A stretch of 64,000 nt of DNA from Sphingomonas sp. LaA6.9 (GTDB lineage Bacteria > Pseudomonadota > Alphaproteobacteria > Sphingomonadales > Sphingomonadaceae): contig NZ_JAKVIO010000020.1 of assembly GCF_022601895.1 (NCBI RefSeq), positions 1-64,000 of the forward strand, given 5' to 3'. The notes under the pieces were generated by a model that had not been told where the DNA came from, made no database searches, and saw only the letters and a list, made by a program, of their open reading frames with translations. The position numbers were made by a program, and so were the translations under genes. Positions 15,493-64,000 of this stretch are shown piece after piece; positions within the stretch are counted from its first letter, which is position 1, and each line of letters starts with the position of its first letter.

Positions 15493-16338
15493 TCAGCTTC
15501 CCTGAAAGAGCGGATCCGTCGGCCCGGCGATATCGACGCGACCGCGCTTCAACTGCGCAAGCACGGGCAGCGCATCCTCGAAGCGCTTGGGCGTGATCCC
15601 CGTAAATTGCTTGATTTCCTTGATGAAGTGCGACTGGTCGTAGAAGTTTTCCGCCATAAGCCCGCTTGTCTCGCCGTCGCCGAGCGCCAGCGATGCCGCC
15701 ACGCGAAGCGCGCGATATTTGCGCGCGAGCAGCTTGGGCGGCGCGCCATAATATCGCTTGCACAGCCTTTCGACCTGCCGCCGCGACAGTTCCAGCGTCG
15801 CCACGAGATCGTCGACCATGGGCGAAGGGGACGCAGCGAGCCACGCGTCGACCCGGCCCGTAAAGGCGAGCGCCACCTGCCGGTCGCGCTGGATGAGCTC
15901 GCGGAACAGCGCGCTGGCGATCACCGCCTTGTCCTCCACCGTCGGCGCGGCGTGCAGGCGCTCCATGATTCCCGCCAGCGCCGCGCCGAAAAAGTCCGTG
16001 GCATCGACCGCGCGATTGACGAGCATTGATGCCTCGAACCCCAACAGCGCGCCCCAGCCCGCAGGCAGCAGTCCCGCGCCGAACAGGTGAATCGGCCCCT
16101 CGGCGCGGATATTGGTGTTGCCCGTGGTCGGGCCGATGATGCTGATGATCGGGATCTGCTGGATATGGCCATCGGCGAAACGGCATGTGCCGCTGCCCGA
16201 AAAGCCGAAGCGGATCTGCGCATAGTCGGCGCACTCGCCCGCCTCGAAGTGCGGCACATCCGCGCGGAACTCGTAAAAAGCGGTGATATAGGCGCTCAGA
16301 TCCGCGTCAGGCGCGGCATAGGTCAGCGACATATCCAT
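15493..16338 (-). CDS. AraC-family transcriptional regulator (tandem copy 1)
   Basis: 281 residues. The N-terminal part (1-150) is of the DUF6597/AraC type (YAQIRFGFSGSGTCRFADGH, IIGPTTGNTNIRAEGPIH, FGAGLLPAGWGALLGFEAS). The C-terminal AraC HTH pair is at about 170-265 (LSRRQVERLCKRYYGAPPKL, FYDQSHFIKEIKQFTGITPK). It is a clear paralogue of the next gene, equal in length and similar throughout. The target is unknown; the nearest genes give no pathway hint. Confidence 0.9.
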   Translation of the reverse strand: MDMSLTYAAPDADLSAYITAFYEFRADVPHFEAGECADYAQIRFGFSGSGTCRFADGHIQQIPIISIIGPTTGNTNIRAEGPIHLFGAGLLPAGWGALLGFEASMLVNRAVDATDFFGAALAGIMERLHAAPTVEDKAVIASALFRELIQRDRQVALAFTGRVDAWLAASPSPMVDDLVATLELSRRQVERLCKRYYGAPPKLLARKYRALRVAASLALGDGETSGLMAENFYDQSHFIKEIKQFTGITPKRFEDALPVLAQLKRGRVDIAGPTDPLFQGS

Positions 16339-59585: not shown

Positions 59586-59948
59586 TCAGTGCCACCGATT
59601 GCCGTTGGCGACGAGATCGTTCGCGGGATAGGAGGTTACGGTGGGATAGCCGAACAGATCGCGCTCCACCTCGCGCCCGATATGGACCACCAGCGGATCA
59701 CGCGCGGCAGGCTTCACCTTCTCGCCCGTGGGCGTGAGGAGATTGGCCGCGATCGCCTTGGCTACCATATGCGTGCGGTTGCGCGCCTGCAGTTTCAGGC
59801 GGACATTGTCGATATGCCGCTCGACAGTTCGCGGCGCTATATCAATGCGCTGCGCTACTTCCTTGGCCGAATATCCCTGCGCCACGAGTTCAAGTATCTG
59901 GTACTCGCGACAGGTCAGGCCCGACGCACCATCGTACTGGTCATTCAT
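59586..59948 (-). CDS. Small GerE/LuxR-type DNA-binding regulator
   Basis: 120 residues from ATG 59948, with AGGGG upstream. The LuxR HTH is at about residues 8-70 (LTCREYQILELVAQGYSAKE, VAQRIDIAPRTVERHIDNVR, LKLQARNRTHMVAKAIAANL). No receiver or ligand-binding domain precedes it. The C-terminal tail (RDPLVVHIGREVERDLFGYP) is unlike the usual end. It lies divergent from the C39 peptidase/repeat-protein cluster across a long AT-rich gap, so it may control that cluster or sense through a partner. Confidence 0.85.
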   Translation of the reverse strand: MNDQYDGASGLTCREYQILELVAQGYSAKEVAQRIDIAPRTVERHIDNVRLKLQARNRTHMVAKAIAANLLTPTGEKVKPAARDPLVVHIGREVERDLFGYPTVTSYPANDLVANGNRWH

Positions 59949-60520
59949 ATCGCTTCCCCTTTTCTGAGATGGGGGCGCTCGTGATGTGACCTCTATTCTT
60001 ATATCCTGCGAGTCGCTCTGTTTCGCAAAGTCATGCACGCGAAATATTACAGTAATTGTCGGAGCTGGGAAAAACCGATCGGTAGAAATACCGGCGACCC
60101 CCGGAACATTTCCCTGAATCCCACTAACCCCTTGTCAATACAAGATGGTAACCAGGAATGCAAGGTTCAATCCAAGGTTCTACGTAGAAATACGCAGAGT
60201 AATATACCGCAAGATATTATCCTTTGTATTGAAAAGCTTAAAAAATTCGCTGAATCGTGCTTCGTGGAGCCGGTCTGCCCGGCGTCCGTCAATTGTCATT
60301 GGCAATCAAACATTTTTGCCGCGATCTTCACTTTGGTCGCGCTGATCGGGGCGTATCCGAGACCGCCGCACCTCGGGCTTTCATGATAAATCGCAAGTCC
60401 CGGCCGAGCCGCCGGGAGTAAATGAAAGCAGTTCGTACAAAACGAACATCGAAGCGGCGGTCCCAGCCTCGCCGGTCCGGCGAGCGGTTACGCCTTCGAC
60501 AATCTGACAGGAGAGATACA
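59949..60520. other. AT-rich regulatory gap before the surface-protein cluster
   Basis: About 570 bp without a believable gene. The part 60030-60260 is much AT-richer than the rest of the window. A small hairpin CGGTA-GAAA-TACCG lies at 60080-60093. Short open frames here have no family features. It probably holds the promoters of the regulator (minus) and of the repeat-protein gene (plus). AGGAGAG at 60509-60515 is the ribosome site of the latter. Confidence 0.55.
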
Positions 60521-61315
60521 ATGCACATGAGGCATCTTCTCACAGCATCGGTCCTCGCGGTTGGCATGGCGATCACCGCGCCGGCATTCGCGCAGGACGG
60601 CGGCGGATCCAGCAGCAACAATGATGGCAACACCGCCACCGACAGCGTCGTGGGCAGCGAAGGCGTCATCAACGACAGCTTCCAGGACAGCTCGACGAAC
60701 ACGTCGACGAAGACCTATTCCAGCGCGGACCAAGACAACGACACCTATACCAAGACATATAACAGCGCGGACCAGGACAACGACACCAAGACATATTCCA
60801 GCGCCGATCAGGACAACGACACCTACAGCAAGACCATAACCAAGACCGATACCGAGACGGTCACGGTTACCAAGGACAACAACAATCAAGACAATGACGT
60901 CAAGGACAGCTACAACCAGGACAACGACAACAAGAACAGCTTCAATCAGGACAACGACACCAAGACCTACACCAGCGCCGACCAGGACAACGACACATGG
61001 ACCTATTCGGGCAACGTCGAGATCGTTGCAGAACAGGACATGAAGGCCGTCGTCTATAATGGCGGTGATCTGAACTTCGACAGCGCCTTCGTGGCGGGCA
61101 GCAATTCGGTCTCCGACAATGCATTTGCCGCCTATGCGGGCATTCTGAACCAGTCGTGGAACACCGGCGTCAACGCCAATGTCCAGTCGGCGACCAACGT
61201 CGCCGCGCAGGGCAGCATCACCTTCACCTCGGGTTCCTCCTCCAACGCTCAGGCCAATCCCGTCACCACGACGTTTACTGTCACGCCCCCCGCCGGCGGC
61301 GGCGGCGGCGAATAA
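60521..61315 (+). CDS. Exported QDND-repeat protein, candidate fibre subunit
   Basis: 264 residues. Signal peptide MHMRHLLTASVLAVGMAITA to about residue 24 (AFAQ). A low-complexity Ser/Asn/Thr/Asp region (25-160) holds seven QDND units at residues 71, 85, 97, 123, 133, 143 and 155, often as SADQDNDT-K/Y-T. A C-terminal domain (about 164-228, NVEIVAEQDMKAV and SVSDNAFAAYAGILNQSWNT) resembles the mature part of the next protein. The tail ends PPAGGGGGE. No cysteine. Composition is like that of functional amyloid or adhesive matrix subunits, but no named family is recognised. AGGAGAG precedes the ATG. A strong terminator follows. Confidence 0.85.
   Translation: MHMRHLLTASVLAVGMAITAPAFAQDGGGSSSNNDGNTATDSVVGSEGVINDSFQDSSTNTSTKTYSSADQDNDTYTKTYNSADQDNDTKTYSSADQDNDTYSKTITKTDTETVTVTKDNNNQDNDVKDSYNQDNDNKNSFNQDNDTKTYTSADQDNDTWTYSGNVEIVAEQDMKAVVYNGGDLNFDSAFVAGSNSVSDNAFAAYAGILNQSWNTGVNANVQSATNVAAQGSITFTSGSSSNAQANPVTTTFTVTPPAGGGGGE
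60731..60994 (+). repeat. Seven QDND repeat units within the exported protein gene
   Basis: Coding repeats whose core is CARGACAACGAC-like. Unit spacing is 14, 12, 26, 10, 10 and 12 residues: a first block of three SADQDNDT units, a Thr/Lys-rich spacer (residues 101-120), then NQDND units and a last SADQDNDT. The DNA copies are similar enough to allow recombination, so copy number may vary between strains. Confidence 0.85.
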
Positions 61316-61324
61316 TGCGGTATC

Positions 61325-61358
61325 GACCGGGCCGGTACGACCGGCCCGGTCATTTTTT
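61325..61358 (+). terminator. Strong intrinsic terminator inside the cluster
   Basis: GACCGGGCCGG (61325-61335) pairs perfectly with CCGGCCCGGTC (61341-61351) around TACGA, followed by ATTTTTTCC. It lies 10 bp after the repeat-protein stop and 27 bp before the next start, so it separates the first gene from the rest. Confidence 0.85.
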
Positions 61359-61384
61359 CCGCATAACCGTTGGAGAAGGGTGTC

Positions 61385-61798
61385 ATGGATAGAAGCGTCC
61401 TGTGGATATGCGCGGTGTGCACATCGGTGGCGCTTGCGCCGTCGGCCGGGGCACAGACGCCCGCCCCCGCAGCACCGAGCGACGTCGCGGCATCGGTCGA
61501 AATGACGGCCGAGACGATGCTGCCCGTCGCCCCGCGCGAAATCGGCGAGGCGGAGGATATGCTTGCCGATGAGGCGCTGGCCGAACTTCGCGGTGGCGCG
61601 CAGATCGTCGTGGCCAATCAGTCGTTGAGCGCAATCACTGCGGGCAACGTCATCAATGGCGACTATCTTGCCGGCACCGTCAGCCTGTCCGACAATGCGC
61701 TCAGCAATTTTACCGGCATCGGCAACCTGCTGATCAATACGGGCGCGCAGGTGAGCCTGCAGACCGGCGTCAATATCACGCTGAACATCAACCAATAG
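61385..61798 (+). CDS. Small exported protein with internal RGG, candidate C39 substrate/minor subunit
   Basis: 137 residues. A signal peptide (MDRSVLWICAVCTSVALAPS to AGAQ) is followed by an acidic Ala/Pro/Glu-rich pro-region (25-60) and ADEALAELRGG (61-71). With cleavage after Gly71, Leu60, Leu65 and Leu68 fall at -12, -7 and -4, the hydrophobic pattern of double-glycine leaders. The 66-residue mature part (AQIVVANQSLSAITAGNVIN, VSLSDNALSNFTGIGNLLIN) resembles the C-terminal domain of the QDND-repeat protein. It is followed after 8 bp by the C39 peptidase gene. Confidence 0.82.
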   Translation: MDRSVLWICAVCTSVALAPSAGAQTPAPAAPSDVAASVEMTAETMLPVAPREIGEAEDMLADEALAELRGGAQIVVANQSLSAITAGNVINGDYLAGTVSLSDNALSNFTGIGNLLINTGAQVSLQTGVNITLNINQ

Positions 61799-61806
61799 CG
61801 ACCGCG

Positions 61807-62589
61807 ATGACCACAGCGTGCGCGCCATATCGGGCGTCAAGCCCTCTGCGCCACTGGCGACAATGCGCGCTTGCCGCGCTCGCGGCGGTGCTGGCGATGA
61901 CGCCCGGGACGGTCACAGCGCAGGTGCGGCTGGGTGGCGGATCCGAAGGCTATTTCACCGTACCGGTGATGAGCTGGTGGGACATCCCCTTTCGCACGGT
62001 GGTGCGCCAGCAATTCGACTTCAGCTGCGGATCGGCCGCGGTCGCCACGATGCTGACCTATCACTACGACCGCAAGACCGGCGAACGCGAGGCGTTCATG
62101 GCGATGTGGTCGCGCGGCGACAAGGCCACCATCAGGAAAAGCGGCTTCTCGATGCTCGACATGAAGGTCTTTCTGACGCAGATCGGCTATCAGGCAGAGG
62201 GCTTCCGCATTTCGCTCGACCAGCTCAAATCGACGCGACGACCGACGATCGTGCTGCTCGATACGAGAGGCTACAAGCATTTCGTCGTGGTCAAGGGCTT
62301 CCGTGGCGACCATGTGCTCGTGGGAGATCCGGCGCTTGGGCTGACCGAGTACCCGCTCGCGGAATTCGAGAAGCACTGGAACGGGATCGCACTTGCGGTA
62401 CTGAAGACCCCGGACAGCAAGCGCGCGAGCTTCAATCTCGCGAGCGACTGGGGCCCCTGGGCGAAGGCGCCGCTCGACGACGACAATGACCTGCGCGTGC
62501 CGACCAGCGAACTGACCAGCTTCCTTCCCCCCGCCTATCAGATCACGCCGCTGTTGCTACTCGAAGTGCGCGTGGGAACGGTGCAGTGA
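61807..62589 (+). CDS. Periplasmic C39-family cysteine peptidase
   Basis: 260 residues. A long signal peptide (to about residue 38, GTVTAQ), then the peptidase domain: Gln68/69 and the nucleophile Cys74 in VVRQQFDFSCGSAAVATML, His158 in GYKHFVVVKGFRG and Asp174 in VLVGDPALGLTEYP. The Gln-Cys-His-Asp set is complete, so it should be active. There is no ABC-transporter part, unlike bacteriocin exporters; stand-alone exported C39 proteins include FapD. Likely matures the neighbouring GG-containing proteins in the periplasm. Confidence 0.9.
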   Translation: MTTACAPYRASSPLRHWRQCALAALAAVLAMTPGTVTAQVRLGGGSEGYFTVPVMSWWDIPFRTVVRQQFDFSCGSAAVATMLTYHYDRKTGEREAFMAMWSRGDKATIRKSGFSMLDMKVFLTQIGYQAEGFRISLDQLKSTRRPTIVLLDTRGYKHFVVVKGFRGDHVLVGDPALGLTEYPLAEFEKHWNGIALAVLKTPDSKRASFNLASDWGPWAKAPLDDDNDLRVPTSELTSFLPPAYQITPLLLLEVRVGTVQ

Positions 62590-62596
62590 GGCACCC

Positions 62597-63223
62597 ATGA
62601 CCCCGCTTCGCCTGCTCACCGCAATCGGCGCCTCGCTGGTGACGGTGGCGCCGGCGGCCGCGCAGATCGCGCCGGGCCAGGACGACGACGCCTTGCAAAG
62701 CCCCGAATTCGACGATGATGCGCTGTTTGCCGGAGCCGCCGCACAGGTCGCGAACAATGCCGAGCTTGAACAGCAGCGCGGCGGCTTTGCGCTGGCGGGC
62801 ATGGATATCCGCTTCGGCGCCGAGGTGCAGACCTATGTCAACGGCGAGCTGGCGCTGATGACGAGCATCAGCTGGGTCGACGATATCGCGGTCAAGACGC
62901 AATATGTCTCGGATCAGCTGAGCGCTGCCACATCGGCGCAGCTGCAGAATGGCGTGCTGATGACGGGGCCGATCACGATGCGCATCGGCGACATGCAGGT
63001 CTTTCTCGCCAATGCCGGGCAGACCGCGCTCTCGCACAATCTCGACGACAGCCTGCAGACCGTTCTCGTGAATACTGCCAGCAATGTGCAGTTCCGCACC
63101 GAACTCAACGCCACGCTCGACCTTGCCGGCTATCAGGCGTTCAACGCGAGCGTCCAGCAGATCCGGCTGGCCGACGCGCTCGGGTCGATCATCGCCGAGC
63201 AGACGATCGGCGCGGTGCATTGA
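62597..63223 (+). CDS. Exported protein with internal RGG, unknown family
   Basis: 208 residues. Signal peptide ending PAAAQ (about residue 23), an Asp-rich pro-region (PGQDDDALQSPEFDDDALF), then NAELEQQRGGFALAG with Gly62-Gly63; Glu56-Leu57 sit at -8 and -7 of a GG cut. The mature part is soluble-looking, with alternating polar/apolar beta-like stretches (MDIRFGAEVQTYVNGELALM, ITMRIGDMQVFLANAGQTAL, NVQFRTELNATLDLAGYQAF). GAGG precedes the ATG, 8 bp after the C39 stop. It could be a second C39 substrate, a chaperone or a fibre component. Confidence 0.82.
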   Translation: MTPLRLLTAIGASLVTVAPAAAQIAPGQDDDALQSPEFDDDALFAGAAAQVANNAELEQQRGGFALAGMDIRFGAEVQTYVNGELALMTSISWVDDIAVKTQYVSDQLSAATSAQLQNGVLMTGPITMRIGDMQVFLANAGQTALSHNLDDSLQTVLVNTASNVQFRTELNATLDLAGYQAFNASVQQIRLADALGSIIAEQTIGAVH

Positions 63224-63247: not shown

Positions 63248-64000
63248 CTAGAAGGAGAACGGGAAGCGGATCGTCACCCGCATGTCGGGCGCATCCGAGG
63301 TCACCCCGAAATCGAACTGGAAATTGACCGTCTGAACCTCGCTCAGCCGATAGGACATGCCGAAGTTGAGCACGCCGACCTGGAGCTCGTTCGAGCGCTG
63401 GTCGGTGCCGCCGATCTCCTGCTCGGTGGGGAAGATGTAATTGTGGCGATAGCCCAGCGAGAAGGAGAAGCGCGGGTTCAGCGCGAAACCGAAGCCAAGG
63501 CTCGCGCTGATCGCGTCGCCCGGATCGACATGACCGATAAAGGCGCCACCGACCACGCGGTTCACATCCTCGGGAACATGGTAGAGATAGCTTGCCGCGG
63601 CGTAGATGACCACGGGCGCGGAGGGCAGCAGGAAGTTGATTCCGGGCTCCACGCCCCAGAAGCCCGATCCGGTCGCCAGCCCGGTCGCGACGCCGAATTC
63701 GTCGAATCCGACATCGAACGGCCCCTTGCCCGAGGGCGTCTTGACGCGAAGGCTTGCGACATAGATCGGGTCCTGCGGCCCCTTGGGCGAGTTGAGCTGG
63801 TAGCGCAGCGAGAATTCGATATCGCCGATATTGCGTTCCTGAAGCTCGATCGAGCGCACGATGCCTTCGTCGCGCTGCTGGACGACCTCGATCCGGTCCG
63901 ACCGGTACATCAGGGGTATGCGCCCCTCGATCTCGAGCCGGCTGGTCAGCCCATAGCGCAGCGAAAACGTCTCCATCAGCGTGTCGCGGTCGGCGTCGGT
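63248..64000 (-). CDS. Outer-membrane beta-barrel transporter-like protein, N-terminus outside window
   Basis: At least 250 residues, open to the right edge, ending RVTIRFPFSF with a terminal Phe. Repeated amphipathic strands occur (FSLRYGLTSRLEIEGRIPLM, IGDIEFSLRYQLNSP, ASLRVKTPSGKGPFD, GFGFALNPRFSFSLGYRHNY, LNFGMSYRLSEVQTVNFQFD). The pattern fits the Phenol_MetA_deg/transporter-type barrels. It runs tail to tail with the C39 cluster, 24 bp apart. Its link to the cluster, for example as exporter, is inferred from position. Confidence 0.75.
   Translation of the reverse strand, partial: TDADRDTLMETFSLRYGLTSRLEIEGRIPLMYRSDRIEVVQQRDEGIVRSIELQERNIGDIEFSLRYQLNSPKGPQDPIYVASLRVKTPSGKGPFDVGFDEFGVATGLATGSGFWGVEPGINFLLPSAPVVIYAAASYLYHVPEDVNRVVGGAFIGHVDPGDAISASLGFGFALNPRFSFSLGYRHNYIFPTEQEIGGTDQRSNELQVGVLNFGMSYRLSEVQTVNFQFDFGVTSDAPDMRVTIRFPFSF

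Follow-up and report, generated by a model that had tools for sequence, protein, structure and literature searches.

The window, a stretch of 64,000 nucleotides from a Sphingomonas genome, contains an alphaproteobacterial Fap-like system in which two secreted proteins, ORF2 and ORF4, carry double-glycine-type leaders on either side of a FapD-like C39 peptidase, ORF3. It is likely that ORF3 cuts both leaders in the periplasm after R-G-G and that the products are exported via a FapF-type pore. The leader is conserved in related loci, is shared by proteins with unrelated mature parts, and is found together with a peptidase whose active site is intact and with a FapF-type gene. Judged from sequence comparison, the original prediction of periplasmic C39 processing of both proteins is supported as the best reading. 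The Sec-type signals agree with its view that the peptidase would be used in the periplasm, though this idea was not new, having already been proposed for FapD in the accessible text of PMC5557850; what is new is the leader itself and its spread over several proteins.

We infer that the leaders are cut, that the products pass through FapF and that ORF1 and ORF2 have roles in a fibre. ORF2, ORF3 and ORF4 would enter the periplasm by Sec. After removal of the signal peptide, ORF2 and ORF4 would retain a pro-region ending in a double-glycine-type leader helix of 13 residues; ORF3 would bind this leader and cut after R-G-G, yielding a small subunit from ORF2 and a FapE-position protein from ORF4. 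The FapF-type pore would then export the freed products, to be added to a fibre consisting mainly of ORF1.

Layout of the locus and its relatives

Four plus-strand ORFs occupy positions 60521-63223, each with a Sec-type signal that by eye ends in A-x-A (Table 1). Such signals had been predicted for the peptidase and both presumed substrates, and were read by eye in all three, so that cutting would be periplasmic. The gaps between ORF2, ORF3 and ORF4 measure only 8 and 7 bases, making a single transcript likely. The C39 assignment of ORF3 also held, with PF03412 scoring 75.2 bits against a cut-off of 22. The FapF-type gene faces ORF4, and its full ORF is L002:3248-4570.

Table 1. Features of the Fap-like locus, in window coordinates
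Feature	Position	Strand	Description
LuxR-like regulator (by eye)	59586..60038	-	divergent from operon
ORF1, QDND-repeat protein, 264 aa	60521..61315	+	ORF with Sec-type signal by eye
Terminator-like hairpin	61325..61351	+	between ORF1 and ORF2; 12 pairs, 10 of them G-C, T tail
ORF2, small protein, 137 aa	61385..61798	+	Sec-type signal, then a pro-region (about 48 residues by eye) and the leader
ORF2 double-glycine-type leader	61559..61597	+	MLADEALAELRGG; cut predicted after 61597, giving AQIVV as mature N-terminus
ORF3, C39 cysteine peptidase, 260 aa	61807..62589	+	Sec-type signal; FapD/FilB relative
ORF4, FapE-position protein, 208 aa	62597..63223	+	Sec-type signal, then a pro-region (about 41 residues by eye), the leader helix and a beta domain
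ORF4 double-glycine-type leader	62747..62785	+	VANNAELEQQRGG; cut predicted after 62785, giving FALAG as mature N-terminus
FapF-type outer-membrane pore gene, C-terminal part	63248..64000	-	440-aa ORF continuing beyond the window end

ORF1, in which no RGG leader was found by eye and which matched no Pfam or NCBIfam family above any cut-off, is possibly the major fibre subunit. Several relatives of the window subclade have homologues of it ahead of the ORF2-type gene, and the C-terminal half of ORF2, with an N/G/Q-rich pattern, resembles the ORF1 C-terminus (E 3e-4). The hairpin between the two genes could be an attenuator giving more ORF1 than downstream products; it has the most pairs of the 6 terminator-like sites detected, against a chance expectation of 3.3 (sd 2.0). 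ORFs similar to the LuxR-like regulator lie near the locus in several relatives.

The only match to ORF3 in the genome at E 0.001 or better was ORF3 itself, and its relatives were collected from other genomes. At family level 47 of 199 genomes matched; 34 matches in 33 genomes were stand-alone proteins by open-frame length, and the remaining matches belonged to frames of some 700 aa or longer, like those of ABC exporters. All 34 stand-alone loci were taken, together with the best 80 of 84 relatives from species genomes and 33 hand-chosen stretches carrying 35 FapD genes from the phylum level, where the FapD model matched 93 of 398 genomes (8 above cut-off). Thinning the resulting 149 loci at 70% FapD identity left 82 representatives, 78 of which contain a FapF-type ORF within the stretch, on the opposite strand in 28 of the 78. 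On the FapD tree the nearest named rows to ORF3 are from Novosphingobium, Sphingomonas and Sphingobium (L080, L081, L083). Two stretches, L196 and L204, each hold two FapD-type clusters side by side.

The leader in the window and in ORF4-type proteins

Both RGG junctions are in frame at the positions where they had been predicted, flanking the C39 gene. Double-glycine leaders are characterised by a -12/-7/-4 spacing. Read from the translation, the ORF2 leader has the claimed Leu at -12, -7 and -4 and shows the full double-glycine pattern, hydrophobic at these positions with G-G at the end. The ORF4 leader likewise has the claimed Glu at -8 and Leu at -7; its Gln at -4 and Ala at -12 weaken the match, which agrees with the classical pattern only at -7 and the GG.

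To set these matches against chance, three leader profiles were scored against the 362 window ORFs of at least 60 aa. A profile from 41 GG-type ORF4-like proteins outside the window subclade ranked ORF2 first and ORF4 second. One built from 20 ORF2-type leaders, the window's own excluded, ranked ORF2 first and ORF4 third, behind an ORF at 15607-16029 that is antisense to a longer ORF (15493-16338), has no signal by eye and was taken as a chance match. With 21 K/R-type leaders ORF2 again came first and ORF4 fell outside the top 6. The leader profile score of ORF2 was 22.1, compared to 12.5 for the best of 1204 minus-strand control ORFs. A strict DNA pattern, E-(L/F)-x3-R-G-G, matched the genome 32 times, and the backwards pattern 11 times. 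Among the 30 of 32 matches that could be placed as loci, 8 fell inside an ORF of at least 50 aa, and we take ORF4 to be the only one of these 8 that is a real secreted protein; another match, L233, has a hydrophobic start and was rejected for Pro at -4 and overlap with a longer opposite-strand ORF. No other convincing leader-bearing secreted protein emerged from the 30 placed matches to this strict pattern, which also misses ORF2 because ORF2 has A-L in place of E-L, so that looser substrates may be missed as well. Chance does not account for the leaders; this is clearer for ORF2 than for ORF4 on its own, and holds for both when their relatives are considered.

An HMM of the sequence that follows the junction, built from 112 seeds picked by motif, found an ORF4-like protein in 135 of 149 loci, 134 of them with the leader in register; the exception, L215, reads by eye LSSYRGG followed by F. 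Among representatives, 72 of 82 have an ORF4-like protein, and the leader is in register in 72/72. The HMM missed ten: L206, L217, L220 and L221 (distant), L211, L098, L079, L095, L101 and L214. By eye, RGG is present in L079, L095 and L214, RGA in L101 and, as part of a fusion, in L098; L206 and L220 match FilB, and no ORF4-type protein was seen in L211.

In the 72 representatives the register search required a loose pattern at -7, -2 and -1, favoured -4, -3 and +1 in its score and left -12, -10 and -8 free; the free positions were L28 V22 I12 A6 M3 C1 at -12 (L/V/I/M in 65/72), D50 E11 at -10 (D/E in 61/72) and E43 at -8. At the favoured positions we counted M31 Q14 L14 I7 and 6 others at -4, R66 at -3, and F44 Y15 at +1, and at the imposed ones L66 M6 at -7, G71 A1 at -2, and G51 K13 R8 at -1. 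Picking the downstream ORF without the motif recovered the strict form in 50 of 71 representatives, compared to a shuffled mean of 0.685 of 71. It also occurred in 29 of 969 further ORFs in these loci that have a hydrophobic stretch, at least 16 of which were counted as upstream subunits or FapF.

Conservation is concentrated in the leader. Across 68 proteins, mean pairwise identity reached 0.41 within the leader; the two preceding 13-residue blocks had 0.115 and 0.105, and the following blocks 0.19, 0.15 and 0.10. In an alignment of 38 GG-type proteins (A2), the only columns at 90% or above were L-7, R-3, G-2, G-1 and one later Gly. The check suggested by the original prediction, that orthologues should keep the junction and the -12/-7/-4 pattern while the pro-region varies, thus came out as expected. 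Its claim of a cut after Gly-Gly stands in part: G at -2 is nearly constant, but GG is not strict, with RAG, RGA, RGK or RGR at the same place.

Leaders on other proteins and the residue at -1

Plus-strand ORFs upstream of the peptidase gene reached a leader profile score of at least 10 in 32 of 82 loci (282 ORFs). In a minus-strand control with four times as many ORFs (1204) this score was reached in 3 of 82, two being FapF genes. Alignment A4 comprises 30 of the 32 scorers, the window included, and two lower scorers, L050 and L204; L095 and L152 were excluded, the latter for a different mature part. The aligned ORF2-type proteins belong to a single family whose C-terminus resembles NTGNNVxIQ. 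A profile from 20 ORF2-type leaders found its best match at the leader place in 72/72 ORF4-type proteins, and the FapE model weakly touches residues 1-42 (signal and leader) of the ORF2-type subunit of L222 (E 0.013). Neither ORF1 nor ORF2 matched NCBIfam FapB or FapC. Homology of ORF2 to FapB is unproven, with a probability of 6.3% in the comparison of the ORF2 family with FapB, and we call it FapB-like by position only.

In A4 the -2 residue is G in 31 of 32 proteins, and -1 is G in 16, R in 9, K in 4, M in 2 and A in 1; their ORF4-type partners have G at -1 in 30/30 counted. ORF4-type rows divide between two supported FapD clades (98/93 and 99/98), 51 with G in one and 21 with K or R in the other, which is one event at most. 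Five FapD columns (86, 97, 171, 214 and 215 in ORF3 numbering) are perfectly split by G versus K/R at the ORF4-type -1, along the one division between clades. A switch of protease specificity from GG to G(K/R) is unsupported: in the GG clade 16 of 32 ORF2-type proteins have a residue other than G at -1, and this mixture disfavours a simple change of specificity. C39 signals are described as cut after the second residue of GG or GA in the accessible text of PMC10233263. K or R in 21 of 72 ORF4-type proteins and non-G residues in 16 of 32 ORF2-type proteins suggest that -1 is tolerant, or that some proteins are cut elsewhere; where -1 is K, R, M or A, the predicted bond would be uncertain by about one residue.

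Such variation at -1 (G, K, R, M, A) is odd for a strict double-glycine protease, and the leader might instead be a docking or targeting signal that is bound and not cut, with the peptidase as a chaperone. The C39-like domain of HlyB acts as a chaperone, and a C39-like domain, 3zua, is among the fold matches of the FapD model (pLDDT 85.7), whose best PDB match is 6mpz (E 3e-9), a double-glycine protease together with its leader peptide. Docking alone is nevertheless unlikely, as ORF3 has catalytic residues Q68, C74, H158 and D174 and this Gln/Cys/His/Asp set is kept in 82/82 representatives. Experiments in Pseudomonas argue the same way: according to the accessible text of PMC5557850, FapD acts in the periplasm, its active-site Cys is needed for secretion (C38A abolishes it), and FapE alone is without N-terminal peptides, over its first ~70 residues, in mass spectra.

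FapF carries a degenerate leader-like site at the end of its coiled coil, scoring at least 8 in 20 of 78 proteins compared to 1 of 78 reversed sequences; the window's own site, VSEDEALVTLRGR followed by GYAQ, lies beyond the window end. Its degeneracy led us to reject FapF as a general substrate and to keep it as a possible one. The RGG could be a recognition or export mark for FapF, with FapD acting chiefly on the coiled-coil/linker joint of FapF or on another Fap protein, and the presence of a FapF-type ORF in nearly all stretches fits this. The accessible literature offers candidates, since FapF cleavage was suggested in PMC5557850 and FapD is reported to modify FapC in PMC10638192, contrary to the 2017 finding of intact FapC (PMC5557850). 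We consider this reading very unlikely, given that only a minority of FapF proteins reach that score at the site while the ORF4-type site is present in nearly all, and that ORF1, also presumed to be exported, has no leader.

In the ORF4 model (AlphaFold, pLDDT 80.0), confidence is low and secondary structure absent up to residue 50; then come a helix of modest confidence at 54-61, corresponding to the leader, and strands of a beta domain from residue 64, right after RGG63; a fold search gave no PDB match at E 0.001 or better. In two natural fusions, L098 and L127, a long coiled coil that by eye has a membrane stretch precedes the FapE-type domain, which lies 313 and 287 residues in; the joint reads RGA or RGG. 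The model sets the motif as a helix beside the first strand, yet a conserved structural helix that starts the FapE-type fold and is unrelated to the protease is scarcely plausible, since the pattern recurs on the ORF2-type family with its different mature part and degenerately in FapF, and stands 28 to 287 residues from the ORF start in ORF4-type proteins and at fusion joints.

Relation to Fap, double-glycine exporters and Fil

Among the closest known systems is the Fap system of Pseudomonas. As there, the window's C39 peptidase has a Sec-type signal and is encoded next to a FapE-position protein and a FapF-type pore. The two systems differ in several respects. ORF3 scored 151.6 bits with NCBIfam FapD (E 1.9e-44) and the in-window part of the pore 102.4 bits with FapF NF058560 (E 2.4e-29), below the curated cut-offs of 330 and 700. 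ORF1 and ORF2 are not recognisable as FapB and FapC, the window has a small subunit with its own leader, the FapF gene is on the opposite strand, and the window has GG where FapE leaders have GR or GK. ORF4 itself had no NCBIfam match, and in a profile comparison ORF4-type and FapE-type proteins matched with 95.6% probability over 37 columns, covering the leader and about 20 residues of the mature start only. At L193 a protein over the FapE cut-off (337 bits against 250) reads LKDAEMADLRGR followed by YVMPG, with the leader ending at residue 40. Across the six collected loci with FapD over its curated cut-off (L190-L195), which we take to be Pseudomonas genomes, the leader ends in RGR (5) or RGK (1), 6/6. 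By homology, FapE would be the FapD target in the reference Fap system, as it bears the same leader.

FapD activity is essential for the secretion of biofilm amyloid, and according to the accessible text of PMC5557850 its target was left "unclear" in 2017, with FapE and FapF suggested and no canonical C39 site in the Fap proteins. In the accessible part of a December 2025 review, FapD is thought to act on FapE and on the part of FapF that lies in the periplasm. The leader was not noted in the accessible parts of PMC5557850, PMC6173800, PMC6173795, PMC11787515, PMC12822426, PMC10233263, PMC3792158, PMC10638192, PMC12392863 or PMC7764130, nor in any title or abstract found by our search, which covered few subscription journals and no preprints. 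Because a cut after LRGR would resemble a tryptic one, trypsin-based mapping cannot separate it from digestion. The conserved leader permits a residue-level prediction of where FapD cuts, and offers a reason for the presence of a bacteriocin-type protease in an amyloid operon.

We cautiously favour a wider reading, in which the N-terminal code common to Gram-negative surface-fibre systems would have two steps. A Sec signal would be followed by a double-glycine-type leader, and in the periplasm a stand-alone C39 peptidase would recognise this leader, requiring G at -2 and accepting several residues at -1. This code would mark at least FapE-type proteins, ORF2-like small subunits and FilA/DUF6160 proteins and, degenerately, FapF, and the FapD site of the reference system would lie between LRG(R/K) and the Y of FapE. 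One processing rule would then apply to Fap, Fil and many unannotated Fap-like systems. FapD and FapF are described as parts of larger families (PMC3792158), and fapD-fapF pairs in five further phyla (PMC6173800), in the accessible text of these papers.

Double-glycine ABC exporters, as of class II microcins and bacteriocins, share with the window the C39 fold, the catalytic residues and a cut after GG or GA. In these exporters the C39 domain is fused to an ABC transporter and the substrate has no Sec signal, whereas ORF3 is a stand-alone protein of 260 aa and Sec-type signals are present, which would place cutting in the periplasm; pro-regions are also longer here, and -1 is often K or R in the relatives.

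The Fil system (FilA/DUF6160, FilB, FilC) resembles the window in having a related C39 peptidase and pore and a leader-like spacing on FilA-like proteins, and differs in its mature protein and in TGQ versus RGG. ORF3 scores higher with FapD than with FilB (114.5 bits, E 5.6e-33, below the cut-off of 475), and the pore fragment gave 62.3 bits with FilC (cut-off 630). Three scanned FilA-like proteins are DUF6160 in Pfam, and four match FilA below its cut-off. Upstream of FilB-type genes, FilA-like proteins carry a leader-like ...L...TGQ right after a Sec-type signal in 6 of 7 loci (L206, L207, L208, L218, L219 and L220, the last with Ala at -4). One example reads MDDAALSGITGQ followed by DGISI, and the -12/-10/-7/-4/-2 spacing in these proteins equals that of Fap-type leaders.
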